Origin: Desulfamplus sp.
GTDB taxonomy: Bacteria > Desulfobacterota > Desulfobacteria > Desulfobacterales > Desulfobacteraceae
Assembly (NCBI GenBank): GCA_015231615.1
Contig: JADGBE010000013.1
Location: 1 to 64,000, forward strand
Direction of reading: 5' to 3'
DNA: 64,000 bases
Under the pieces are notes generated by a model that had not been told where the DNA came from, ran no database searches, and saw nothing but the letters and a program-made list of their open reading frames with translations. A program made the translations under genes and the position numbers. The stretch's first letter is position 1. Every line of letters starts with the position of its first letter. Positions 10,387 to 42,428 of this stretch are shown here, piece after piece.

Positions 10387-13300
10387 CTACCTCAAATTAA
10401 AAAACTCCACATTTGACCACCCGCTCAACCCATTGCTGTTATAAGCTTTAACCGCTCCATAAAAAGCAAATCCTTTGCCATCAAATGAGACTTCTCGCTG
10501 TTTACCCATCTCAATTTCGCCAATATCAGAGGGTTCTGGATTTGGATATGGAGCATAAAATAGCCTGTAGCCGTCAGCATTTGCAACTTCTGACCATGAA
10601 ACTGTAACCATATTTCCTTTGGTAGTGATTTTTATTTGTGGAGCTTCAAGAAATACTCCAGAATTTGCGATAACATTAAGAAATTTCTGCTCAGGCAGAG
10701 AGACATTACCAGCCTTGTCTTTGGCGTAATAGACAGCCTGATAACAGCCAGTTGCGAGGTTTGGGTAAGTTTGGCTTAAATCTGCTTCATAAACATTCAC
10801 TTTATCAGATTTTTGTTTCATCTCAATATTTACAGTTCGGTTTGATGGGTCAGTGATTGAGCTGATTGAACAAAATACGCCGCCCATTTCATTTTCAGGG
10901 TCAGTTGCAATCGCCCAGAGGAAATTATTTTGCGTATCTTCTCTGTTTATAGTCATGTCTGGATTTGTGGTTCTGATTTGTGGGCGTAAATTGCCAGATG
11001 GTCGGTATTCTATGAACTTGCCTGATGCCTCATAACTGTCAAACTTTGTCGTGCCAAAACCGTCTCCGTCTGCGTCCATTACTGGTCTTTGTGTGTGGCG
11101 ATAAAATTTCAAAATTTCGTAGCTTGCCTCAGCAAATGAGCCTTCAATATCACTGCCGTAGTTGATGAATTGATAGAAATATCGTGAAAATGAGCTTTCA
11201 CCAAGATTGTCGTAACCAGCATAACCGCCTTCATCAATCGGCTTGTCAGATGACGATGTCAAAATAATCCTGCCGTTACCTGCAATCTTTTCAATCCATT
11301 TACCAGATTGAGTTCCTTCAAGCACTATGGTTACAGGAAAACCTTTATATTCTGAATAGTTATCTTTTGAGTTGGTTTTAATGATCTCTTCAGCTTCATT
11401 AAGATATTTGGCAAGATCGTCAGCAGTTAAAACTTCGCTGTCGTTAAGTCTAAAACCGTTATCATCTTCAACTTTTCCGATAAGATAGAGATTTAAAGGG
11501 GTTTTGTATGGATCGTCAGTGGAAAATAAGGTGGTTGCCCAGTTAGTTAAAGAATCGTGCAGATTGGCTTTATTTGCTGTTCCGTTTGTAAATTTAGGGT
11601 CATCGGCAATGCCAAGATATTTTATTCGTTCGGCTGGAATATTTCTGCTTTTCAAGGCATTGTAAACATAACTGCCTAAATTCTTTGAAATGGTTTGAAA
11701 ATCTGCATTTCCAGATTCGGAAACAACAATAATTCCCTCACCAACTGGCTGACCAATCGGAACTACAAGTTTTGTGTTTATGCTGAGATAATCAGAAGTC
11801 TCTGGGAGGCTTGCCTTGACATTGATAAAACCGTTTCCAGGAACTACGACATCTCTATAAAATACGCCGTTTGCATCTATTTCAACACCTCCAACAAATT
11901 GGGGTTGAAGTCCAGCGTCTTGATTTGCAGGGTCAAGATAGCGAATATCAAGATTGACCTTTGTTCCGTCAAGTCGCACAGGTGTAATGATTCCTTGAAC
12001 TCTTAGAATATCGCCTTTTTTGGTTGATTGATTCACGTTTGATGATAGGGCTATGTTTGTTTTAGCTGGAAGGATAAAAATTTCTGCGGTGTTGCTGGTT
12101 ATTCCGTTTGAATTGGCAGTCAAAGTCAGCAATCCCGCATGAATCGGCGTAACAGTGCCTTGAAAATAACCTTTTTCATCGGTCGTAAAAGCCGCTGATT
12201 CCGCAGACTCTTTGATGTTATTGCCTGAAATAACTACAGATTGTCCCGCCTGTGCTGGAATAACATTCCCTGCAATCGTGAGAGAATCAAGAACTCTTGT
12301 CCGTTTTGTTTTATGGGCAATACTCAACGCAATCATGGAGTTTGTGCCATCGCTGACCTGAACATTTAAAGATGTGCTTTTGCCTGAATAACCTGATTGA
12401 ATTTTTGGAATGATTTTAATTGTTTGGGTGCTTTCAGAAAAGGCGGCAATTGTTAAAAGAACAGGTTTTGTTTCGCCTGATTTTAGTGAAACAGCTATGG
12501 GCTCAAGTTTTACGTTTATGTTATTGGAAATCGTATTTCCTGTGGCTGATTCAATCTCAAGAGCTACATCACCTCTGAACAAATCCAAAGAAGTGGCAAA
12601 CACCGTGATTTCTGCTTTTTCATTTGGCAACATTGCAATTGCATTTCTATCAAGGGTTAGCTCAACTCTTGGTTTCTCCTCAACCTGCGGGGTAATTAAA
12701 GCTGCTTCGTTGTTGTTTGCAACTCTGATAAGTTTGCCATTCTCTTCAATTACAGCAGAAAGGCGGTAATATCGGGGCAAACCTTCAAGCCATTCAGGGT
12801 CTTCTATTGGGGTATTGAGGGTATAGCCTTTTGTTGTTGAGCCGTCTGAATTTGTTCTTGTTTCTGGTGTGTGTCCTTCAACTGTAACCCAGCAGTTGTC
12901 AACTCTTGGTTTAGGACAAATCGAATAATCCGTGTAAAATCTGATTAGTTTATCTGAAGCATCAAGCACTGTTTCGTAAACGCCATCTTGTGATAATGAG
13001 CGTTGAAGTTCTATGTATTTGACGTTCTGAAAATCAAGAGAGGAAGAGTTGAGAAACCAGTTGATTGTGATTTCTGGGGAGTTGGGTTTGATGATTTGTT
13101 CGGGGGTGCCGAGTTGAAGGAAGTGGGCGAGACCTCCGCCATCAGTTCCAATCCATAATCCCCCGCTATTGTCTGACAAGAGGGAGAGTGAGTCAACATA
13201 GTTATCAGGTAATCCTGAATTTTTTGTATCAAAGACTTGCCACGAGCCGTTTGACTTTAAATGAGTAAGACCGCCTCCACGAGTTCCAATCCATAATCCT

Positions 13301-15036
13301 CCGCTTTCATCAGACAAGATTGAGCTAACATAGTTGTCAGGTAATCCTGAATTTTGTGTATTAAAGACTTGCCACGAGCCGTCTGACTTTAAATGAGCAA
13401 GACCGCCTCCATAATAATCGGCAGTTCCAATCCATAATCCTCCGCTGTTGTCTGACAAGAGGGAGTTAACAACTCCGCCTGGTAATCCTGAATTTTTTGT
13501 ATTAAACACCTGCCACTCACCGTCTGATTTAAAATGAGCAAGACCGTTAAATATAGTTCCAATCCATACTCCACCAATTCCGTCTGACGAGAGGGAGTTA
13601 ACAATTCCGCCTGGTAATCCTGAGTTTTCTTTATCAAAAACTTGCCACGAGCCATCTGACTTTAAATGAGCAAGACCGCCTCCATTAGTTCCAATCCATA
13701 AGTCCCCGTTGATGTCTGACAAAAGGGCAGAAACATTGTTATTAGGCAGTCCTGAATTTTTTGTATTAAAAACTTGCCACGAGCCATCTGTATTTAAATG
13801 GGTAAGTCCGCCAGAAGCTCCACCAATCCATAATCCTCCGTTGTTATCTGATAAGAGGGATGTAACAATGTTATCAAGCAATCCTGAATTTAAAGTATTA
13901 AATTTGAGATTCCTTTTTTTTCGCGAAATGTAAATGTAATTATCGTCTTTATGCTCACGCTCTGTATTAAAAACTTGCCACGAGCCATCTGACTTTAAAT
14001 GAGCAAGACCGCCTCCATTAGTTCCAATCCATAAGTCCCCGTTGTTGTCTGACAAAAGGGCAGAAACATAGTTATAAGGCAGTCCTGAATTTTTTGTATT
14101 AAAAACTTGCCACGAGCCATCTGTATTTAAATGGGTAAGTCCGCCCCAATAAGTTCCAACCCATAATCTCCCGTTGCTGTCTAACAAGAGAGATAAAACA
14201 TAGTTATCAGGTAATCCTGAATTTTTTGTATTAAAGACTTGCCACGAGCCATCTGACTTTAAATGTGTAAGACCACCATAATAAGTTCCAATCCATAATC
14301 CTCCGCTTTCGTCTGACAAGATAGAGTTAATAAAGTTGTCAGGCAAACCTGAATTGTTTGTATTAAAAACCTGCCACGAGTCATCTGCTTTTAAATGGGC
14401 AAGACCGCTGTTATAAGTTCCAATCCATAATCCTCCACTGTTGTCTGATAAGAGGGACCAAACAGAGTTGTCAGGCAATCCTGAATTTTCTGTATTAAAG
14501 ACTTGCCATGAGCCATCTACCTTCAAATGGACAAGATTTCTGTCATAATAACTGATAGTTCCGATCGTTATAATCCATAATCCTCCACTGTTGTCTGATA
14601 AGAGGGACCAAACAGCGTTGTCAGGTAATCCTGAATTTTGTGTATTAAAGACTTGCCACGAGCCGTTTGACTTTAAATGGGCAAGACCGCCACGAGTTCC
14701 AATCCATAATCCTTCGCTTTCATCTGACAAAAGGGAGTTAACATGGCTGGAAGGCAACCCATCTAAATTTGTAAATAACTGAAGAAGTTCTCCTGATTCT
14801 GCATTACGTTTTTCCAATCCACCAACTGTTCCCACCCAGAGTATTTTGCCATCGTCTGATCTCAATAAAGCATTAATCGTACTAATGCTTGTATAAACCT
14901 CCCAATTCTGCCTTTCTGCCTCAATACGATTTTCTTCTGATGATGCTATTGAAGGCAATACCCATAAACAAACAAGGAGCAAGTAAAAACAGTGATTTAC
15001 GCTAAAGAATCTGAATCTTTTTTGTTTTAATTTCAT
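10387..15036 (-). CDS. Giant secreted protein: 13 propeller blades, Ig-like domains, degenerate C13 caspase-like domain, FN3 (paralogue A)
   Basis: 1549 residues with a clear signal peptide (FYLLLVCLWVLPSIAS). About 40-640 holds 13 repeats of roughly 43 residues of the two-component-regulator propeller type (SGLPDNxVxSLLSD, GGLWIGT, GLAHLKSDGSWQVF). Units 6-7 and 8-9 are near copies. About 20 foreign residues (REHKDDNYIYISRKKRN) break the run after unit 7. Next come an FN3-like stretch, Ig-like segments, and a domain resembling peptidase C13/caspase (clan CD) at about 1115-1330. There the expected His-Gly reads LIGKVEDD and the expected Cys position reads LEGTQSG, so it is probably inactive. 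A DADGDG calcium-type loop, an Ig-like domain and a C-terminal FN3 follow. GGAGATTTTAC precedes the ATG. Last gene of a likely operon with paralogue B and the S41 protease. Confidence 0.85.
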   Translation of the reverse strand: MKLKQKRFRFFSVNHCFYLLLVCLWVLPSIASSEENRIEAERQNWEVYTSISTINALLRSDDGKILWVGTVGGLEKRNAESGELLQLFTNLDGLPSSHVNSLLSDESEGLWIGTRGGLAHLKSNGSWQVFNTQNSGLPDNAVWSLLSDNSGGLWIITIGTISYYDRNLVHLKVDGSWQVFNTENSGLPDNSVWSLLSDNSGGLWIGTYNSGLAHLKADDSWQVFNTNNSGLPDNFINSILSDESGGLWIGTYYGGLTHLKSDGSWQVFNTKNSGLPDNYVLSLLLDSNGRLWVGTYWGGLTHLNTDGSWQVFNTKNSGLPYNYVSALLSDNNGDLWIGTNGGGLAHLKSDGSWQVFNTEREHKDDNYIYISRKKRNLKFNTLNSGLLDNIVTSLLSDNNGGLWIGGASGGLTHLNTDGSWQVFNTKNSGLPNNNVSALLSDINGDLWIGTNGGGLAHLKSDGSWQVFDKENSGLPGGIVNSLSSDGIGGVWIGTIFNGLAHFKSDGEWQVFNTKNSGLPGGVVNSLLSDNSGGLWIGTADYYGGGLAHLKSDGSWQVFNTQNSGLPDNYVSSILSDESGGLWIGTRGGGLTHLKSNGSWQVFDTKNSGLPDNYVDSLSLLSDNSGGLWIGTDGGGLAHFLQLGTPEQIIKPNSPEITINWFLNSSSLDFQNVKYIELQRSLSQDGVYETVLDASDKLIRFYTDYSICPKPRVDNCWVTVEGHTPETRTNSDGSTTKGYTLNTPIEDPEWLEGLPRYYRLSAVIEENGKLIRVANNNEAALITPQVEEKPRVELTLDRNAIAMLPNEKAEITVFATSLDLFRGDVALEIESATGNTISNNINVKLEPIAVSLKSGETKPVLLTIAAFSESTQTIKIIPKIQSGYSGKSTSLNVQVSDGTNSMIALSIAHKTKRTRVLDSLTIAGNVIPAQAGQSVVISGNNIKESAESAAFTTDEKGYFQGTVTPIHAGLLTLTANSNGITSNTAEIFILPAKTNIALSSNVNQSTKKGDILRVQGIITPVRLDGTKVNLDIRYLDPANQDAGLQPQFVGGVEIDANGVFYRDVVVPGNGFINVKASLPETSDYLSINTKLVVPIGQPVGEGIIVVSESGNADFQTISKNLGSYVYNALKSRNIPAERIKYLGIADDPKFTNGTANKANLHDSLTNWATTLFSTDDPYKTPLNLYLIGKVEDDNGFRLNDSEVLTADDLAKYLNEAEEIIKTNSKDNYSEYKGFPVTIVLEGTQSGKWIEKIAGNGRIILTSSSDKPIDEGGYAGYDNLGESSFSRYFYQFINYGSDIEGSFAEASYEILKFYRHTQRPVMDADGDGFGTTKFDSYEASGKFIEYRPSGNLRPQIRTTNPDMTINREDTQNNFLWAIATDPENEMGGVFCSISSITDPSNRTVNIEMKQKSDKVNVYEADLSQTYPNLATGCYQAVYYAKDKAGNVSLPEQKFLNVIANSGVFLEAPQIKITTKGNMVTVSWSEVANADGYRLFYAPYPNPEPSDIGEIEMGKQREVSFDGKGFAFYGAVKAYNSNGLSGWSNVEFFNLR

Positions 15037-22660: not shown

Positions 22661-25600
22661 AAAAAACTCCACATTTGACCATCCACTTAAACCATTGCTT
22701 TTATAAGCCTTAACCGTCCCATAAAATGCAAATCCTTTGCCATCAAACGTTATTTCTCTTTGCTTGCCCATATCAATTTCGCCAATATCTGATGGTGAAC
22801 AATCTGGATAATTACAATAAAAGAGCTTGTATCCGTCAGCATTTGCAACTTCTGACCACGATATTGTAACCATATTTCCGTTGGTAGTTATTTTCATCTT
22901 TGGAGCTTCAAGAAGCACTCCAGAATTTGCAATAACATTCAAGAATTTCTGCTCAGGCAACGAAACATTACCAGCCTTGTCCTTTGCGTAATAGACAGCC
23001 TGATAACAGCCAGTTACAAGATTTGGGTAATTTTGGTTTAAGTCTGCCTTGTAGAAATAGCCCGTATCAAGTTTCATTTCAATATTTACGGTGCGGTTTG
23101 ATGGGTCAGTGATTGAACAGAAAACACCCTGCATCTCGTTTTCAGGGTCAGTCGCAATCGCCCAGAGGAAATTGTTTTGAGCATCCACTCTATTTATCGT
23201 CAAATCAGGGTTTGTGGTTCTGATTTGTGGGCGTAAATTACCAGACGGACGATACTCAATAAATTTACCTGACGCCTCATATCTGTCAAAGTTTGTTGTG
23301 CCAACACCGTCTCCATCTGCATCCATCACTGGTTTTTGCGTATGGCGGTAAAATTTTAGGATTTCGTAGTTAGCCTCTGCAAATGCCCCTTCAATATCAC
23401 TGCCGTAGTTGATGAATTGATAGAAATATCGTGAAAATGAGCTTTCACCAAGATTGTCGTAACCAGCAAAACCGCCTTCATCAACTGGCTTGTCAGATGA
23501 CGATGTTAAAATAATTCTGCCGTTACCTGCAATTTTTTCAATCCATTTGCCAGATTGAGTTCCTTCAAGAACTATGGTTACAGGAAACCCCTTATATTCT
23601 GAATAGTTATCTTTTGAGTTGGTTTTAATTATCTCTTCAGCTTCATTAAGATATTGTGCAAGGTCGTCAGCAGTTAAAACTTCGCTGCCGTTCAACCTGA
23701 AACCGTTATTCTCATCTTCAACTCTGCCGATAAGATATAGATTTAAAGGGGTTTTATATGGGTCGTCAGTTGAAAATAAGGTGGTTGCCCAATTGGTTAA
23801 AGCGTCATGTAGATTTGCTTTATTTGCTGTTCCGTTTGTAAATTCAGGGTCATCAGCAATGCCAAGATATTTTATTCGTTCGGCTGGAATATTTCGACTT
23901 TTCAGGGCGTTATAAACATAATTACCCAAACTCTTTGAAATGGTTTGAAAATCTGCATCTCCAGATTCGGAAACCAGAATAATCCCCTCACCAACCGGCT
24001 GACCAATAGGAATCACAAGTTTTGTGTTTATGCTAAGATAATCAGAAGTTTCAGGCAGGCTTGCCTTTACGTTGATAAAGCCGTTACCCGGAACTACAAC
24101 ATCTCTGTAAAATACGCCGTTTGCATCTATTTCAACACCTCCAACAAATTGGGGTTGTAATCCAGAACTTTGATTGGCAGGGTCGAGATAACGTATATCA
24201 AGATTGACCTTTGTTCCGTCAAGTCGAACAGGCGTAATGATTCCCTGCACCCTTAAAATATCGCCTTTTTTGGTTGACTGATTCACGTTTGATGAAAGGG
24301 CAATGTTCGTTCTGGCAGGCAGGATAAAAATTTCTGCGGTGTTGCTGGTGATTCCGTTTGATTGGGCAGTCAAGGTCAGCAATCCCGCATGAATTGGCGT
24401 AACAGTGCCTTGAAAATAACCTTTTTCATCGGTCGTAAAAGTCGTTGATTCAGCGGATTCTTTAATATTATTGCCTGAAATAACTACAGATTGCCCCGCC
24501 TGTGCTGGAATAACATTACCTGAAACCGTCAGAGCGTCCAGCACTCTTGTCCGTTTTGTTGTGTGGGCAATGCTTAATGCAATCATGGAGTTTGTGCCAT
24601 CGCCAACTTGAACATTTAAAGATGCACTTTTGCCTGAATAACCTGATTGAATTTTAGGAATGATTTTAATTGTTTGGGTATTTTCAGAAAGGGCGTCAAT
24701 TGTCAAAAGAACTGGTTTTGTTTCACCTGATTTTAAAGAAACAGAAGAAGGTTCAAGCCCCACATTTATGTTATTAGAAATCGTATTGCCTTCAACTGAT
24801 TCAATTTCAAGCGTTACATCACCTCTAAACAAATCCAAAGAAGAGACAAACACCGTAATTTCTGCCTTTGTGTTTGGCTGCATGGCAATTGCATTGCGGT
24901 CAAGCGTTAGTTCAACTCTTGGTTTTTCCTCAACCTGCGGAGTAATTAGAGTTGCTTCGCTGTTGTTTGCAACTCTTACAAGTTTTCCATCTTCTTCAAT
25001 TACAGCAGAAAGGCGATAATATCGTGGTAAACCTTCAAGCCATTCAGGGTCGTTTATTGGAGTGTTTAGGGTGTATCCTTTTGTTGTTGAACCATCTGAA
25101 TTTGTTTTTGTTTCTGGTGTGTGTTCTTCAACTGTAACCCAGCAGTTGTCAACTCGTGGTTTAGGACAAATAGAATAATCAGCATAAAATCTGATTAGTT
25201 TATCTGAAGCATCAAGCACTGTTTCGTAAACTCCATCTTGAGATAATGAGCGTTGGAGTTCTATATATTTGACGTTTTGGTAATCAAGAGATGAAGAGTT
25301 GAGAAACCAGTTGATTGTGATTTCCGGGGAGTCGGGTTTTATGAGTTGTTCAGGGGTGCCGAAAAGAAGTAGGTGGGCGAGACCGCCACCATCAGTTCCA
25401 ATCCATAACCCTCCTTGCTCGTCTGAAATAAAAGACTGCACATCGTTATTCGGCAGCCCTGAATTATCTTTATTAAAGACTTGCCATGAGCCATCTGATT
25501 TTAAATGTGCAAGACCGTCAGAAGTTCCGATCCATAATCCTCGTTCCTCGTCTGAAATAAGAGAATAGACAAAATTAAACGGCAGCCCTGAATTGTCTGT

Positions 25601-26518
25601 ATTAAATACCTGCCATGTGCCATCTGACTTATAATGGGCAAGACCACCTCCCCAAGTTCCAATCCATAAACCACCGCTTTGGTCGGACAAGAGGGCAAAA
25701 ACCCTGTTGCCAGGGAATCCTGGACTTTCTTCATCAAATACCTTCCATGATCCATCTGCCTTGAAATGGGCAAGACCGCCCCAAAAAGTTCCAATCCATA
25801 AACCACCGCTCTGGTCTAACAAGAGGGAACGAACAGAGTTGTCAGGTAATCCTGAATTTTGTGTATCAAAAACTTGCCATGTGCCATCTGACTTTAAATG
25901 GACAAGACCGCCCCCAGTTCCAATCCATAAACCACCGCTGCCGTCTGATAAAAGAGATGCAACATAATTGTCAGGTAATCCTGAATTTTTTTTATTAAAT
26001 ACTTGCCAAGAGCCGTCTGACTTTAAATGAGCAAGACCGCCCCCAATCGTTCCAATCCATAATCCTCCGTGTTGGTCTGATAACAGGGAATAAACAATGT
26101 TGTCGGGCAATCCTGAATTTTTTTTATTAAATACTTGCCATGAGCCATCTGATTTTAAATGTGCAAGTCCACCTAAATAAGTTCCAATCCAGAGTCCCCC
26201 GCTACTATCTGACAGGAGAGAGGTAACAATGTTGTCCGGCAATCCATCTAAATTTATAAACAACTGAATAAGGTGTCCTGTTTCTGCGTCACGTTTTTCC
26301 AATCCTCCCATTGTTCCAACCCAGAGAGTTTTGCCATCATCAGATAACAATAGAGCCTGAACATTGCTACGGCTTGTATAAACCTCCCAATTTTGCCTTT
26401 CCTCTTCAATACGATTTTCTGCAAATGCCATTGAAGGCAACGCCAAGAAGCAAACTAAAATCATGTAAAACCAGTGAGTTGCATTAAAGAATCTGAATCT
26501 TTTTTGTTCTGATTTCAT
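22634..26518 (-). CDS. Giant secreted protein: 8 propeller blades, Ig-like domains, degenerate C13 caspase-like domain, FN3 (paralogue C)
   Basis: 1294 residues, the shortest of the three. A signal peptide (FYMILVCFLALPSMAFA) is followed by only 8 propeller units (GGLWIGT, GLAHLKSDGSWQVFNK), then the same Ig-like, caspase-like and FN3 order. The caspase-like positions read LIGRVEDE and LEGTQSG, so His and Cys are again absent. The blades are closer to A than to B. The last residues differ: A and B end FFNLR, whereas C ends FFNLENTAKY because the frame runs into unrelated sequence. The 5' untranslated sequence up to ACCATCTTTAAGGAG matches that of paralogue B. Separated from B by the toxin-antitoxin debris, so probably its own transcription unit. 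Confidence 0.85.
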   Translation of the reverse strand: MKSEQKRFRFFNATHWFYMILVCFLALPSMAFAENRIEEERQNWEVYTSRSNVQALLLSDDGKTLWVGTMGGLEKRDAETGHLIQLFINLDGLPDNIVTSLLSDSSGGLWIGTYLGGLAHLKSDGSWQVFNKKNSGLPDNIVYSLLSDQHGGLWIGTIGGGLAHLKSDGSWQVFNKKNSGLPDNYVASLLSDGSGGLWIGTGGGLVHLKSDGTWQVFDTQNSGLPDNSVRSLLLDQSGGLWIGTFWGGLAHFKADGSWKVFDEESPGFPGNRVFALLSDQSGGLWIGTWGGGLAHYKSDGTWQVFNTDNSGLPFNFVYSLISDEERGLWIGTSDGLAHLKSDGSWQVFNKDNSGLPNNDVQSFISDEQGGLWIGTDGGGLAHLLLFGTPEQLIKPDSPEITINWFLNSSSLDYQNVKYIELQRSLSQDGVYETVLDASDKLIRFYADYSICPKPRVDNCWVTVEEHTPETKTNSDGSTTKGYTLNTPINDPEWLEGLPRYYRLSAVIEEDGKLVRVANNSEATLITPQVEEKPRVELTLDRNAIAMQPNTKAEITVFVSSLDLFRGDVTLEIESVEGNTISNNINVGLEPSSVSLKSGETKPVLLTIDALSENTQTIKIIPKIQSGYSGKSASLNVQVGDGTNSMIALSIAHTTKRTRVLDALTVSGNVIPAQAGQSVVISGNNIKESAESTTFTTDEKGYFQGTVTPIHAGLLTLTAQSNGITSNTAEIFILPARTNIALSSNVNQSTKKGDILRVQGIITPVRLDGTKVNLDIRYLDPANQSSGLQPQFVGGVEIDANGVFYRDVVVPGNGFINVKASLPETSDYLSINTKLVIPIGQPVGEGIILVSESGDADFQTISKSLGNYVYNALKSRNIPAERIKYLGIADDPEFTNGTANKANLHDALTNWATTLFSTDDPYKTPLNLYLIGRVEDENNGFRLNGSEVLTADDLAQYLNEAEEIIKTNSKDNYSEYKGFPVTIVLEGTQSGKWIEKIAGNGRIILTSSSDKPVDEGGFAGYDNLGESSFSRYFYQFINYGSDIEGAFAEANYEILKFYRHTQKPVMDADGDGVGTTNFDRYEASGKFIEYRPSGNLRPQIRTTNPDLTINRVDAQNNFLWAIATDPENEMQGVFCSITDPSNRTVNIEMKLDTGYFYKADLNQNYPNLVTGCYQAVYYAKDKAGNVSLPEQKFLNVIANSGVLLEAPKMKITTNGNMVTISWSEVANADGYKLFYCNYPDCSPSDIGEIDMGKQREITFDGKGFAFYGTVKAYKSNGLSGWSNVEFFNLENTAKY

Positions 26519-32997: not shown

Positions 32998-34494
32998 TCA
33001 GCCTCTTTGTTGTCCCCTGAGCAACACCATTAACTCATTAACAAGTCCCAACATCACTTCAGATTGAGCGTGCATCTGTTCCGAAGCACTTGCAGACTCT
33101 TCAGCATTTGCAGCATTTTGCTGTATTACTTTATCCATCTCAGCAACAGCAATATTTACCTGTGCAATTCCAGTTGCCTGCTCTCGTGATGCTTCAGAAA
33201 TCTCACCAATTAATGACCCAACTTTTGTAGTGCTTCGAGTTACTTCATTAAATGCAATATTGGTTATATTTACCAACTCTGAACCACCCATTACCTTTTG
33301 AACAGTGCCTTCAATCATAACTGCTGTACTTTTTGCAGCTTCAGCAGAACGCATTGCAAGATTTCTTACCTCTTCTGCAACTACAGCAAAGCCTGCCCCA
33401 GCTTCACCAGCCCTTGCTGCCTCAACAGCAGCGTTAAGAGCTAACAGATTGGTCTGAAATGCAATCTCATCAATAGTTTTAATAATTTTTGAAATTGCAT
33501 CACTTGCCTTTGAAATCTCTTCCATGGAATGGATAAGTTGATTCATTGATTCATTTGCCTTATTTACAACGCTATTGGCATCTTTCATCAACTTATCAGC
33601 ATGACTTGCATTCTCAGAGTTTCGTTTTGTCATAGAGGATATCTGCTCTAAAGATGATGCTGTCTCCTCAATAGATGCTGCCTGTTCAGATGCCCCTTCT
33701 GCTAACGATTGGCTTGCATTTGCAACTTGCCCTGATGCTGATGACACCTGCCCTGCCCCATCATTTAACCCATCAATGACTCTATTAAGTGGTATTGTAA
33801 TTGCTCTTGTTATTAAAAAAGAGAGCAGTCCTCCAAGTAAAACAGCGAAAATGCCCGTTATCAACATTAAACTATTGGCGTGAGATATTTCTGACTCCAT
33901 TTTTTCTTTTTGGTTTGCGGCAGCATCTTCACAGACTTTAATTGCATCTCTGGCAGCTTTGACCATAATTGCGTCAGACTCTTCCTGTTTTTTGCTGATA
34001 CTATCAAGTTGTGAATTGCTATTAAGTTGCAACTTAGTATCAGGCTGTAAATTGGTATTGCGATTAAGTTGCAGATTCTGCCCATTACCTTCTTGAGTTT
34101 TTGCTAAAATTGCACTTTTTTGATTCGTAAACTCTACATAATCATTGAATGCACGATAGTAGATATTAACCTTTTCAGTAACCTCGTCCATTTGAGCTTT
34201 ATTCAAAGGGTCTTTAAACTGTTCTTTTACATGAGAGGCATGTTTTATAAGGTTTTTAACAATTTCATCTACCTTCTGCAGATAACTTGCATCATTACGA
34301 ATAATATAATTCTTTTCATGTCGTCTTGCTTCAAGGATCATCTTTACCATCAAGTTTACATCATCTGATTTGTCAGCCCTATCAGCTACGCCACTTAAGC
34401 TTATGTATCCTATAGATGCGACAATAACCACAAACAAGATAATAATTGAAAACCCACCAGCTATTTTTGCTCCAAGTCTTACGTTACTAAACAT
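32998..34494 (-). CDS. Methyl-accepting chemotaxis protein
   Basis: 498 residues. TM1 (about 8-32, [20 protein letters not shown]), a helical periplasmic sensor, TM2 (about 207-230, [18 protein letters not shown]), a short HAMP and the signalling hairpin. The conserved hairpin tip reads [20 protein letters not shown] and [20 protein letters not shown]. No NWETF-type CheR tether is present. An Asn/Gln/Leu-rich run ([20 protein letters not shown]) is inserted in the sensor helix and looks like repeat expansion. The hybrid kinase gene ends 28 bp upstream, so the two are probably co-transcribed. Confidence 0.92.
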
Positions 34495-37867: not shown

Positions 37868-39385
37868 TTATGGAAATGGTATAACTTCAGGGACAGCCTT
37901 TATAAAATGCTGACGCAAACTGTATGTATATGCCCCCTGTCCCGGAATCATCAACAGATCGCCATCTTGAATATCTTTGCCCCAATAGCTATATCCCCAA
38001 ACGTCATGCGGGGTGCAAAGAGAGCCTGTAATAAGACACTCTCTTTCAGTTAAAGCGGGGCGAGATATGTTCAGAATCGGGCAGTAGTCTGTCTCAAATC
38101 GCTCCCAACCTATGGCATTTGTCCCTCCATCAGTTATAACCAGATCGTCATATTTTTTATCCATAACTTTGATAATAATGTGCATACTGTCATTGCATAT
38201 CCATCTTCCGGGTTCAAAGCAGATTTTGCAAGATATTTGATTATGAATGTTATCACAAATAGCACTGCTAAGTTCTTGAGCAAATGTCTCAATGGAGGTG
38301 GAAGGATTAAGATAATGGGGATATGGTTCAGCAGCAGAACCATAATTTCCAGAAGTGTTAGGCAAATAATTAGAACTATTTTGAACAGAAGAAGTTAATG
38401 GATTTAATGAAGATGAAGTTAGTGAATTTAATGAAGATGAAGTTAATGGATTTAATAAAGATGGAGTCAATGGATTTAATGAAGATGGGTTTAAAGAAGC
38501 TCCCAATGCGTTACGCATCATGCCTTGAGGAGTTCCTGCTGGTTGAAGCCACTCACCTTGTTCAGGCCAGTACCCTCCACCAATATCAATAAATTTTATC
38601 ATCAGCCGTTCTTCAGGAGTTAAAGCAGCAAGAGTTTCTCCAAGCTCTTTTATAAAGGCAATTTGACGATCAGGAGTCATATTCCAGCTTGAATGGAACT
38701 GAATCCCCTGAAAATTGATATACTTATATTTTTTGGACTCCTCAATAAATTTTGCTAAATCTTCTTTAGGTATTCCAAATTTTCTCCATAATCCATTAGG
38801 CTCAGTTGTAAGACGAACTCCAACTCTCATTTTTTTACCTTGACGGGCAGCACGCTTTTCAAGACGTTTCATCTCTGTAAAGCTGTCTATCAATACAACT
38901 ACCTTTGCATTATTGGCAATTGCAATATCAAGCTCTTGAGCCGTTTTACCAGGACCGCTAAAGACAATATCATCAGCACCAAGCTCTAATGCAGTTTCAA
39001 GTTCAGCACCACTTGAGACATCTAACCCAAATCCACAAGTTAGAACTGTTTTGGAGACATCAGGAAAGTTGTTGCTCTTCATGGCAAAATAAAATCCTGT
39101 CTCTGGAAGGCGTTGCTGAAAAACTCTCTTAAATATTTTAGCTTTATTTATGATAACACCAGGCTCAAAAAGATAACAAGGTGTAAGATGTCCACCTATT
39201 GTATGGAGAATCTGCCTTCCTTTCATAAAATTTGTTTCAACAAAATTAAGCAGAAGTTTATCAGGTAAAAGTTGTGTTGTTTTATTTAAGATAGCTTGAA
39301 CCTGCTGAATAGTTGCTTGATTTTGTTGGGTTGATATCTGAAATTGCTGAAACGTCTGATTTTTATATTCTGATAAATCAACCAT
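37868..39385 (-). CDS. Fold-type III PLP-dependent decarboxylase (diaminopimelate/ornithine decarboxylase family)
   Basis: About 505 residues. The Schiff-base Lys lies in FYFAMKSN, the PLP phosphate-binding Gly motif in FIDIGGGYW, EPGR in CFEPGRWICND, and the cross-subunit active-site Cys in GSLCTPHDVWG. This family decarboxylates D-centre diaminopimelate or L-basic amino acids; the exact substrate cannot be read. A Gln-rich N-terminal extension and a 24-bp minisatellite-coded Ser/Asn/Pro/Leu/Thr insert (LNPLTSSS units) set it apart from relatives. I chose ATG 39385 (MVDLSEYKN) over 39409: GCGAGGA lies 5-6 nt upstream, and the start then overlaps the ATP-grasp stop by 8 bp (translational coupling). 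Confidence 0.85.
   Translation of the reverse strand: MVDLSEYKNQTFQQFQISTQQNQATIQQVQAILNKTTQLLPDKLLLNFVETNFMKGRQILHTIGGHLTPCYLFEPGVIINKAKIFKRVFQQRLPETGFYFAMKSNNFPDVSKTVLTCGFGLDVSSGAELETALELGADDIVFSGPGKTAQELDIAIANNAKVVVLIDSFTEMKRLEKRAARQGKKMRVGVRLTTEPNGLWRKFGIPKEDLAKFIEESKKYKYINFQGIQFHSSWNMTPDRQIAFIKELGETLAALTPEERLMIKFIDIGGGYWPEQGEWLQPAGTPQGMMRNALGASLNPSSLNPLTPSLLNPLTSSSLNSLTSSSLNPLTSSVQNSSNYLPNTSGNYGSAAEPYPHYLNPSTSIETFAQELSSAICDNIHNQISCKICFEPGRWICNDSMHIIIKVMDKKYDDLVITDGGTNAIGWERFETDYCPILNISRPALTERECLITGSLCTPHDVWGYSYWGKDIQDGDLLMIPGQGAYTYSLRQHFIKAVPEVIPFP
38391..38486. repeat. 24-bp tandem repeat, four units, inside the decarboxylase gene
   Basis: Four consecutive 24-bp units of the form GAAGTTAATGGATTTAATGA-AGAT with few substitutions, plus a decayed fifth. 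On the coding (minus) strand each adds eight residues such as SSLNPLTS. The period keeps the frame, so unit number can change without breaking the enzyme. Confidence 0.85.
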
Positions 39386-40925
39386 TATAGTCCTCGCTTT
39401 TGGGTTCAATAATATCTATCTTTAGCATTGATAAAAGTTCCATGCACTGATCTTTATAGGGTATGTCTTCAAAAGGTTTAAAAATAATATGCCCTAAATT
39501 CCATGAATCATAATTTTCAGGTGGTAGAGTAATTTGATGACGAGTTTTATGTTTTATGAAAATCTCTCTAACTCTGGAATCAGATTCAACTTTCTTAGTG
39601 TCAATTGATCTCAGAACCCCTGACTGATTAGCATGAATCCTAAGACCAATAAGTTTATCATCAAAGTGTGGCAAGTATTTATCGCAACCAGTTGATAAAT
39701 GTTTATCATAACAAGTTGGTAAATGTTTTAACTTAAAATCTTCTTTCTTAAAACTCTGGTTAGAGTAACAGGCAAAATCAAGGTTAAGTTTCAATATATC
39801 AATGTTCATAGCTTTTTGAATAAGCCAAGGAAGGCAATCTCCACCCGGTCTTGGTGTCATTTCAAGTAGCGACACTTTATTGTGAACATCTACAATAAAA
39901 TCAACCATACAGATAGCCCTTGTTATACCAAGTGCTTTTGCACCTTTTTCTAAAACAGATATTAGATATGATTTATCAATATTAGCAGATGAGATGTCAA
40001 CAATTTCATAAGCCATAGTAGTGCCAAAAACAGGAATAGGAGAAGGTATTTTACGTGTAAATCTTATCGGAATAACATCATGCTTGTAAACATCTTCTCC
40101 ACTACAAAATATATTTTTTAGAACTTTTATTTCGCCATCTTTTGTTCCGCCAATTATAAAATCACAACTATACTCTGTTCCCTCCACATAAGTCTCAATT
40201 ATAATATCTGGTGAGCTTTGGGGTTTACAGATAAGATTGTATGCGGCTTCGCACTCATTTGCAGTGCTACACCTAAAAACTCGTTCGCTGCCGCTGCTAT
40301 CAACAGGTTTTAGAACACATGGTGTTATTTTGGATATTTTATCACGCAAAAAATTTATTTTATTTTTATCTAATAAATTTTCATTGTTAAGCTTATTTAG
40401 AGAGAAATTAATATTTTGAACACTTTGAACAGAGTTAAAAAACTCAACAGCTTGGGCAGCAGAATTTACTCTTTTATATTTGGGAGTTGGGACTCCTTTT
40501 GCGTGCCAAAGTTCTCTGGTTTTTGATTTATCTCTACACGCCATCACAGCCTCGATTGATGGGTAGGGCATATTAAATGAAGCAGCAATTTTGGCAGTAA
40601 GAGCCATTGATTCACAGTCAAAGCAGGCAATACCCTTTAATGTGATACCATAAAGTTGGATATGTTTATTAATAAGGTTGATGACCTCTTGAGGTAAGGT
40701 AGAAGAATGAGAATTAGTAACATTAGTGGCAGCTAAATTATTAACTCCCCCAAGTCTATCAAGCTCACATAGCAACTCTTCATCTGGCTCTGGTCTCTCT
40801 TCAGTTGCCTTTTCTCTAATTGTTGAGTCTGTGATAAAAACAAGCTCTTTTGTAGGATACTTCTTACGAAGAAGATCAATGTAATCAGATGTTGTTCCAA
40901 CAATCAAGATTCTTTGGCTTTGCAT
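39378..40925 (-). CDS. ATP-grasp domain ligase
   Basis: 515 residues. A Rossmann-like preATP-grasp domain (RILIVGTTSDYIDLLRKKYP) is followed by an ATP-grasp fold: ACRDKSKTRELWHAKGVPTP, the lysine strand PCVLKPVDSSGSERV, the hinge IIETYVEGTEYSCDFII, and the Mg-binding end VDFIVDVHNKVSLLEMTPRPGGD. Such enzymes join a carboxylate to an amine through an acyl-phosphate. Two inserts stand out: a Asn/Leu/Lys-rich run (NINFSLNKLNNENLLDKNK) in the ATP-grasp core, and three 8-residue units (HLPTCYDK-type) coded by 24-bp repeats. Sits between the acyltransferase and the decarboxylase with almost no gap. Confidence 0.87.
   Translation of the reverse strand: MQSQRILIVGTTSDYIDLLRKKYPTKELVFITDSTIREKATEERPEPDEELLCELDRLGGVNNLAATNVTNSHSSTLPQEVINLINKHIQLYGITLKGIACFDCESMALTAKIAASFNMPYPSIEAVMACRDKSKTRELWHAKGVPTPKYKRVNSAAQAVEFFNSVQSVQNINFSLNKLNNENLLDKNKINFLRDKISKITPCVLKPVDSSGSERVFRCSTANECEAAYNLICKPQSSPDIIIETYVEGTEYSCDFIIGGTKDGEIKVLKNIFCSGEDVYKHDVIPIRFTRKIPSPIPVFGTTMAYEIVDISSANIDKSYLISVLEKGAKALGITRAICMVDFIVDVHNKVSLLEMTPRPGGDCLPWLIQKAMNIDILKLNLDFACYSNQSFKKEDFKLKHLPTCYDKHLSTGCDKYLPHFDDKLIGLRIHANQSGVLRSIDTKKVESDSRVREIFIKHKTRHQITLPPENYDSWNLGHIIFKPFEDIPYKDQCMELLSMLKIDIIEPKSEDYNG
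39654..39725. repeat. 24-bp tandem repeat, three units, inside the ATP-grasp gene
   Basis: Units 39678-39701 and 39702-39725 (TTTATC..AAC.AGTTG.TAAATG) are closely alike; the first, 39654-39677, is decayed. The encoded units are HLPTCYDK, HLSTGCDK and YLPHFDDK. The period equals that of the repeat in the adjacent decarboxylase although the sequence differs. Confidence 0.75.
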
Positions 40926-40947
40926 TGATAATAAATCCGATAGCGTT

Positions 40948-41901
40948 TTAAATGGATAAAGGTTGTTTTAGAATAATTTGATAAAGTGTTCTTGGAGTTA
41001 AATGGAATCGCTCTTTCCACCCAAAATCACCGCAAAGAAAGTCAATATACTCTATCTTTTCAGAACATGCCCATTTGAGATGGTGAAGGTTAATAAGTTT
41101 TGCAATCCCCAAAAATTTTTTATTAGTTCCACCAGCAAGCATAATACAGGTATTGTTCCATATAGCACCCATATCAACAGCAGCAATTTCACCATTTATA
41201 AGCACTGTAACTACTCTTAGCATTCCATTTTTATCTAAATTTGAAGCAAGCTCAATAAAAGATTGTAAAAACTTTGGATCATGGAAATATCCATGCTCTC
41301 CAAAATTGCTGATATTGAGTCTAAACATAGTATCTAAGTCATCAGGGTCGTTATACCTAAAAGAGATACCCTGTTTTTCAATTGCTGTTATTTCAGACAA
41401 GATTTTTTTTCTTGATTTACCAGCAAAAGTTCCAAGATACTTTTCGTAACTATATTCATGATTTTTAGGATAAAATAGATAACCTGTCTCATCAACTGTG
41501 CTGTTTAAGCTAAACTCAGATGGAATATTATCCAATGAAGTTTTACACAAATATCTTATATCTGCACTGTTTTGGAATGAACAAAGTGTTAATAGCATCT
41601 CCCGCATTACATCGCTATTTTCAGCAATAATTTTGTTCTGTTCCATCCATGTTCTATTGTGCCATATCTCACCCGGAAAAAAAGCAAAGGCATTAATAGG
41701 CTCTACAACTTTACAAAGTGGAAGCAGACCATTTAGTCTGCCATTTTCTTCGTGGACAATAAAAAAAATATCTCTCATGTAATTCTTTGCAAAAGTCTCT
41801 CTGACCCACCAAATGTCAAAGAGAGACTCAACAGGGTAGTATTTCTGCCATAAAAAGGCACACTCATCAATATCCTTTACAACACGGATTTTTGGTGGCA
41901 T
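40948..41901 (-). CDS. GNAT/FemAB-like N-acyltransferase
   Basis: About 317 residues, built like the CelD/BioF2 (DUF482-type) acyltransferases with two GNAT-like halves. Seen: YLGTFAGKSRKKILSEITAI, a typical basic patch of the family, and the second half MLRVVTVLINGEIAAVDMGA ... MLAGGTNKKFLGIAKLINLH. It would transfer an acyl or aminoacyl group to an amine. I prefer ATG 41901 (MPPKIRVV) over the track start 41934 because AAGGA lies about 9 nt upstream. It ends 22 bp before the ATP-grasp gene. The donor and acceptor are unknown. Confidence 0.75.
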   Translation of the reverse strand: MPPKIRVVKDIDECAFLWQKYYPVESLFDIWWVRETFAKNYMRDIFFIVHEENGRLNGLLPLCKVVEPINAFAFFPGEIWHNRTWMEQNKIIAENSDVMREMLLTLCSFQNSADIRYLCKTSLDNIPSEFSLNSTVDETGYLFYPKNHEYSYEKYLGTFAGKSRKKILSEITAIEKQGISFRYNDPDDLDTMFRLNISNFGEHGYFHDPKFLQSFIELASNLDKNGMLRVVTVLINGEIAAVDMGAIWNNTCIMLAGGTNKKFLGIAKLINLHHLKWACSEKIEYIDFLCGDFGWKERFHLTPRTLYQIILKQPLSI

Positions 41902-41953
41902 GGCAATATATCCTTTTTGATATTTATATTTCAAACAGAATAAACTTAACTTT

Positions 41954-42016
41954 TATATATGCAAAACTCAATTTATGACCGCTTGCAGTATATATGCAAA
42001 ACTAAACTTATGACCG
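41954..42016. promoter_or_regulatory. Two 28-bp direct repeats, 35-bp spacing, upstream of the acyltransferase gene
   Basis: TATATATGCAAAACT.AA.TTATGACCG occurs at 41954-41981 and again at 41989-42016 with two substitutions. A 35-bp period (between three and four helical turns) and the position between the AdoMet-decarboxylase-like gene and the acyltransferase gene suggest a paired operator or a small tandem duplication. The TTATGACC core recurs in other gaps of the window. Confidence 0.5.
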
Positions 42017-42038
42017 AGAGCATCATAGTAAAATTGCA

Positions 42039-42428
42039 TCATTGTCTGTAAGTAACATTAATCATTGTCTCTTTGCCTTCAAAATAGCCTTGTGCAAAAT
42101 TTCTAACAACTTCTGGGTCATAAGGTTTGCAACTAAACACATCAAGATATGTGGTGTTGGTAAGATTGGCAAAATGGGCAGAGATAAGAGATGTCTCAAT
42201 CAACTGCACCATTGAAAATCCAGCAACTTTTTCATCTTCACCAAAATGGACAACCTGAGTCTCCCCAAATCTCTTCATCTCAATTAAATCGCACAGGTCT
42301 TTTACAAACTGTTTTATATATTCTGCGTCTCTGATTTTTTCAGGATTACAGCTATATATATCAATTGAAGATGCGATACCCCAAACATCTTCAGCAGGAT
42401 CAATTTTTCTAATTGGCACTATTTTCAT
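42039..42428 (-). CDS. S-adenosylmethionine decarboxylase-like protein (SpeH family)
   Basis: 129 residues, the size of bacterial AdoMetDC proenzymes, which self-cleave at a Ser to make a pyruvoyl cofactor and yield the aminopropyl donor for polyamines. The fold signature TYLDVFSCKPYDPEVV matches the normal DVFTCG strand, and ETSLISAHFAN aligns with the usual ESHISIHTW cleavage region. The Ser is kept, but the usual His after it is Leu and a residue is added, so activity is uncertain. First gene of the operon; ACAAGGAGAATAAGTAAT precedes the ATG. Its neighbours suggest a polyamine-like product. Confidence 0.72.
   Translation of the reverse strand: MKIVPIRKIDPAEDVWGIASSIDIYSCNPEKIRDAEYIKQFVKDLCDLIEMKRFGETQVVHFGEDEKVAGFSMVQLIETSLISAHFANLTNTTYLDVFSCKPYDPEVVRNFAQGYFEGKETMINVTYRQ

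Follow-up and report, generated by a model that had tools for sequence, protein, structure and literature searches.

Intragenic VNTRs, or coding minisatellites, are known from bacteria, and the tolA gene of E. coli is one example (PMC3477136; PMC3899988). Their units lie head to tail and in frame, and related genomes differ in copy number by whole units. Both slippage and recombination models have been given for minisatellites (PMC3899988), and the contraction of the tolA repeat was RecA-dependent (PMC3477136). Two neighboring enzyme genes of a Desulfamplus genome carried arrays that share these properties of in-frame, head-to-tail units and whole-unit variation. They were located in the window, the whole 64,000-nucleotide stretch of DNA analyzed here, which belonged to assembly G000 (3.86 Mb in 200 contigs, 90% complete). 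We consider, with a probability of roughly 0.87, that the two arrays are in-frame coding minisatellites of separate origin that share their period by chance, and that they represent two cases of a genus-wide process. The features of the gene pair were as follows.

37868..39385, minus strand: PLP-dependent decarboxylase gene, fold type III, DapDC/ODC-like, 505 aa (ORF; Pfam PF02784 and PF00278)
38384..38479, minus strand: decarboxylase array of four 24-bp units, residues 303-334 (TRF and unit listing)
38336..38491, minus strand: decarboxylase loop with the array, residues 299-350, pLDDT <50, predicted disordered (AlphaFold2)
39378..40925, minus strand: ATP-grasp gene, 515 aa (ORF; Pfam PF13535)
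39657..39728, minus strand: ATP-grasp array of three 24-bp units, the last being, by its sequence, the ancestral copy (TRF and comparison with the units of G007 and G005)
39666..39755, minus strand: ATP-grasp loop, residues 391-420, pLDDT <50, predicted disordered (AlphaFold2)

The ATP-grasp gene (40925-39378) was followed on the minus strand by the decarboxylase gene (39385-37868), and the two overlapped by 8 bp. The former matched ATP-grasp_4 and the latter Orn_Arg_deC_N and Orn_DAP_Arg_deC, and a reading of the sequence alone had correctly described them as an ATP-grasp gene and a decarboxylase gene. The decarboxylase is PLP-dependent and belongs to the DapDC/ornithine decarboxylase type. 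The decarboxylase also matched TIGR01048 (lysA) below the curated cut-off. The closest NCBIfam models for both proteins scored far under their cut-offs, and thus the exact substrates of both enzymes were left unassigned.

Positions 37868-42428 and loci L182-L216 showed a gene order of AdoMetDC-like, GNAT/FemAB-like, ATP-grasp and decarboxylase genes. The ATP-grasp-decarboxylase neighborhood recurred in almost every related locus, and these ranged from Desulfobacterota to MAGs named Krumholzibacteria, Verrucomicrobia, and Pirellulales. The four-gene neighborhood looks like an uncharacterised biosynthetic cluster, and a literature search found nothing on it.

The decarboxylase array was detected by TRF at 38387-38487 with a period of 24 bp, 4.2 copies, 88% match, no indels and a score of 160. 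The ATP-grasp array was detected at 39678-39728 with the same period, 2.1 copies and 85% match, and a third unit adjoined it at 39657-39680. In frame, the decarboxylase units read LNPLTPSL, LNPLTSSS, LNSLTSSS, and LNPLTSSV, and differed among themselves at 2-6 of 24 bases; the ATP-grasp units read KHLPTCYD, KHLSTGCD, and KYLPHFDD, the third being degenerate, with 8 mismatches to the first over 24 bases. The unit sequences of the two arrays were unrelated. The four and three units of 24 bp that the sequence-only reading had counted were therefore present, apart from the degeneracy of the last ATP-grasp unit, and the in-frame listing agreed with its eight residues per unit, equal period and differing sequences. 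The arrays had the properties of a coding minisatellite or intragenic VNTR: units within the ~10-100 bp range lay head to tail inside a gene, and the unit length was a multiple of three that kept the frame, with both ORFs open.

Both proteins were gathered from genomes of the same genus and more distant ones and then aligned, with one genome per species. The closest relatives were G007 and G005; pairwise DNA identity among the three genomes was 0.91-0.93, and G000 was about equally close to both. The decarboxylases of G007 and G005, which shared 93 and 92% protein identity with that of G000, had one unit each at this place and were thus three units, or exactly 24 residues, shorter. The ATP-grasp gene had three units in G000, three in G007 and one in G005. 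The comparison of unit numbers that had been proposed earlier thus revealed whole-unit differences between close relatives (decarboxylase 4 vs. 1 and 1; ATP-grasp 3, 3, and 1), in which the counts of G007 and G005 came from metagenome assemblies, where copy numbers can be wrong; arrays of 72-96 bp fit within a normal short read. Both arrays were absent from the other genus members and from all outgroup genera aligned. Homologous inserts of fixed length were looked for in these distant relatives and were absent there, so that this test did not refute the earlier reading.

The last decarboxylase unit, LNPLTSSV, was the single copy kept in G005. Compared with the single G005 copy, the third ATP-grasp unit had 3 differences in 24 bases, and units 1 and 2 of G000 had 9 and 12. 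Judging from these sequences, each array has its ancestral unit in last position. Since the last units matched the single copies of the relatives, the arrays are local tandem duplications. The decarboxylase site of G007 carried a 15-bp doublet (ASLNPSSLNPL), which is a plausible seed for the array. Because G000 was about equally close to G007 and G005, the simplest history is that the decarboxylase array was gained in the lineage of G000.

In-frame insertion into conserved enzymes is a hallmark of Rickettsia palindromic-type elements, and a mobile or dispersed repeat of this kind, inserted into the genes, would also give in-frame inserts in conserved enzymes such as those found here. However, each array matched local ancestral sequence, and the unit sequences differed among the in-gene arrays listed. 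When the decarboxylase array was used as a DNA query against its own genome, it matched only itself, and no related copies were found elsewhere. This makes a mobile origin extremely unlikely for the pair, and it was ruled out for the decarboxylase array, which occupied one genomic place only. The arrays grew by local tandem duplication, and do not represent mobile elements or any conserved domain.

AlphaFold2 models were built from alignments of the window and locus proteins (34 sequences for the decarboxylase and 33 for the ATP-grasp protein) and had mean pLDDT values of 83 and 84, respectively. The array segments (residues 299-350 and 391-420) fell below 50 and the flanking secondary structure was confident, which indicated that the inserts were loops outside the fold. 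The decarboxylase loop was located between the GGGYWP and FEPGRW motifs, and the ATP-grasp loop separated the ATP-grasp domain from the C-terminal part. The models gave no support to an ordered turn in the array segments. A structural solenoid or conserved repeat domain, with ordered units conserved in relatives, did not agree with the pLDDT below 50 or with the absence of the arrays from relatives. Over aligned codons, dN/dS was 0.14-0.22 among G000, G007, and G005, and the frames were open, which suggested that both enzymes were under purifying selection and not decaying. The proposed mapping of the inserts onto predicted structures thus placed both in loops predicted to be disordered, and the predicted disorder together with the purifying selection supported the earlier statement that they lie in loops of otherwise conserved enzymes.

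The tandem-repeat scan asked for in the sequence-only reading was run by TRF on genome samples: 0.6 Mb from G000, 0.4 Mb from each of G007 and D. magnetovallimortis, and 0.16-0.2 Mb from each of four outgroup genera. In-gene arrays were abundant in the three Desulfamplus samples, but their periods peaked at 18 and 21 bp, and the 24-bp period accounted for only 11 of 156 in-gene arrays (7%). Periods that were multiples of three were found in 148 of 156 in-gene arrays vs. 20 of 81 intergenic ones, and the median period was 21 bp in genes and 22 bp between them. The similar medians and the frame bias in genes suggested that one mutational process acted in both, and that frameshifts were removed by selection. 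Selection for the reading frame was clear.

A selected 24-bp period, in which a turn of the structure accommodates the eight-residue unit or matching repeats let the two enzymes interact, was suggested by the equal period in a neighboring, overlapping gene pair and by the richness of both proteins in indels. However, the unit peptides were unrelated and both were predicted to be disordered, and G007 combined three ATP-grasp units with one decarboxylase unit, which indicated that the counts were uncoupled. The ATP-grasp enzyme of other species carried units of other lengths: in one G002 protein, a 15-bp unit (EQHSG/EPYSR) was repeated 8.6 times behind the segment that corresponds to EELLC of the window, and in the G006 protein a 21-bp unit (EIHAPVK) was repeated seven times in a different loop. 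The chance that two random arrays share a period was 0.124, and a common period was seen in 5 of the 19 close pairs of the G000 sample; therefore, the shared period needs no explanation. The period distribution spoke against a meaning of the shared period, selection of the period is very unlikely, and coincidence is the most likely source of the equal periods. A meaning of the identical period was not supported by the rarity of 24-bp arrays or by the sharing seen among random (~12%) and close pairs. The mechanism proposed in the sequence-only reading divided into two parts. Growth of a length-tolerant linker by slippage or duplication, under selection for frame, was supported by the whole-unit differences, the single-copy seed, the predicted disorder and the multiples of three. 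Selection for turn length was not supported, given the 7% share of 24-bp arrays and the 15- and 21-bp arrays of the sister species.

In coding minisatellites of separate origin, a 24-bp piece of each gene's own loop sequence would have been duplicated head to tail. The first duplication was probably caused by replication slippage between short repeats, and further units would have been gained by slippage or unequal recombination. Slippage is the molecular event that we infer here, and recombination could give the same pattern. Duplications that kept the frame in a loop outside the fold would be tolerated, others would be removed by selection, and the inserts themselves are presumably neutral. 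The two arrays would have arisen separately and share their period by chance, and the same genus-wide process would swell many conserved Desulfamplus proteins with disordered, length-variable inserts.

Among 54 orthologue pairs of G000 and G007, 17 indels of at least two residues were found, and five of them fell in the decarboxylase and ATP-grasp genes, which made up 6% of the sequence compared (p = 0.002). Given this clustering, there may be something special about these two proteins. By eye, about one third of the 17 indels were clear tandem duplications, which suggested that other insertion events also contribute. The arrays might be a tuning device, in which the copy number alters activity or substrate range and is kept by selection, as for tolA in E. 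coli, whose repeat number changes stress tolerance (PMC3477136). The whole-unit variation between close relatives and the position of both proteins as indel hotspots fit this explanation. However, the differences at 2-6 of 24 bases among the decarboxylase units suggest slow rather than frequent turnover, and the arrays of the genus were spread over many unrelated housekeeping genes. Tuning is therefore unlikely.

In G002, the ATP-grasp and decarboxylase genes were fused in one long reading frame (L012, L038, and L192), and one assembly contained two copies of the fused frame.

The spread of in-gene arrays in the genus was consistent with two ordinary cases of a wider process. In 0.53 Mb of G000 coding sequence, codon-shuffled genes contained on average 5.1 arrays vs. 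70 in the real genes, and 0.3 vs. 29 for arrays of at least 2.8 copies; codon shuffling left 2-5 arrays per Desulfamplus sample. The real counts were far above the shuffled ones, and the in-gene arrays are thus not due to chance. With the same TRF settings run on extracted genes, 154 arrays were counted over the 1.21 Mb of coding DNA in the three Desulfamplus samples (127 per Mb), compared with 29 over 0.66 Mb in the four outgroup genera (44 per Mb), an excess of 2.9-fold, or 4.8 for arrays of at least 2.8 copies, between groups of unmatched base composition (GC 36-41% in the genus samples and 46-56% in the outgroups). AT-richness could be the source of part of this excess, because the base composition was unmatched.

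In the G000 sample, 50 of 459 predicted genes (~1/9) carried a detectable in-frame tandem array. They included TruB, iPGM, DAHP synthase/prephenate dehydratase, GrpE, PFOR, Mfd, LptD, a type II/IV secretion ATPase, and others. The mfd gene of G000 (L089:12675-16535) contained six 27-bp units (ILQTDNISK). Among the genomes searched, this segment was present in G007 only, and the Mfd matches of G004, G009, G006, D. magnetovallimortis, and the outgroups broke off on either side of the array. Full-length Desulfamplus Mfd frames were 1212-1316 aa long, vs. mostly 1160-1185 aa in the other genera of the family. The TruB frames of G000, G007, G008, and G002 had 373-423 aa, compared with 303-324 aa for almost every other genus of the family; those of G009, with 321 aa, and D. 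magnetovallimortis, with 281 aa, were not long. GrpE frames were 253-328 aa in most of the genus vs. 184-256 aa elsewhere in the family. No clear lengthening of iPGM was seen in the length comparison. In another gene with a 21-bp array, whose family was unassigned, the array region was likewise shorter in G004, G009, and G008.

Some further repeats were observed beside these genes. Long arrays of ~132 bp at 13130-14711 and 25394-26245 of the window look like propeller repeats of the two-component-regulator type. A methyl-accepting chemotaxis protein at 32998-34494 contained a degenerate repetitive insert, probably another decayed duplication. In contig C3 of G000 (L064, 486-612), a 16-bp array of 7.9 copies with 96% match lay over a 92-aa ORF; its period was not a multiple of three, and the array was therefore probably not coding.

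We tentatively propose, as a possibility somewhat short of even odds, that Desulfamplus has an unusual rate or tolerance of short tandem duplication, the rate being high, that its conserved proteins are widely enlarged by disordered inserts specific to the lineage, and that the cause is heritable and identifiable, either a change in replication or repair or relaxed selection on length. Loss of the known suppressors of tandem-repeat rearrangement was considered as the cause, and no simple loss fitted. In ten Desulfamplus genomes searched, a recJ-family match was found in all ten, xseA in nine, with G000, G007, and G005 among them, and sbcD above the cut-off in four (G000, G001, G005, and G007). 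Of two RecJ-like genes, G000 yielded the lower-scoring one alone (405 bits). The array load of G007 was similar to that of G000, and G000 was only 90% complete; thus, simple loss does not explain the load. Several Desulfamplus genomes, including G007 and G005, had two RecJ-family genes. To our knowledge, mismatch repair does not act on loops of 24 bases.

The load of the genus includes the core genes mfd, truB, iPGM, and grpE. No publication dealing generally with tandem repeats of Desulfamplus coding genes came up in a literature search. Recent repeats influence both the lengths and the alignments of proteins in this group. Desulfamplus would be a natural system for the study of tolerated disordered loop growth in enzymes and of what sets the tandem duplication rate.

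The two arrays themselves are ordinary in kind, and only the load across the genus merits a specialist's attention. In tolA, the copy number has been shown to affect stress tolerance, whereas the Desulfamplus arrays lie in predicted disordered loops of metabolic enzymes and are known from sequence. Variants of the KPC beta-lactamase likewise contain in-frame tandem-repeat insertions in a catalytic enzyme (PMC12593533); however, the KPC-263 insertion was 3 bp and was found under drug pressure, whereas the decarboxylase gained three whole 24-bp units. Intragenic microdiversity loci (PMC2884548) are similar in that small variable segments keep the frame within genes. That study compared strains within species, and minisatellites made up 2-4% of the E. 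coli loci, whereas in Desulfamplus species were compared and tandem arrays were common.
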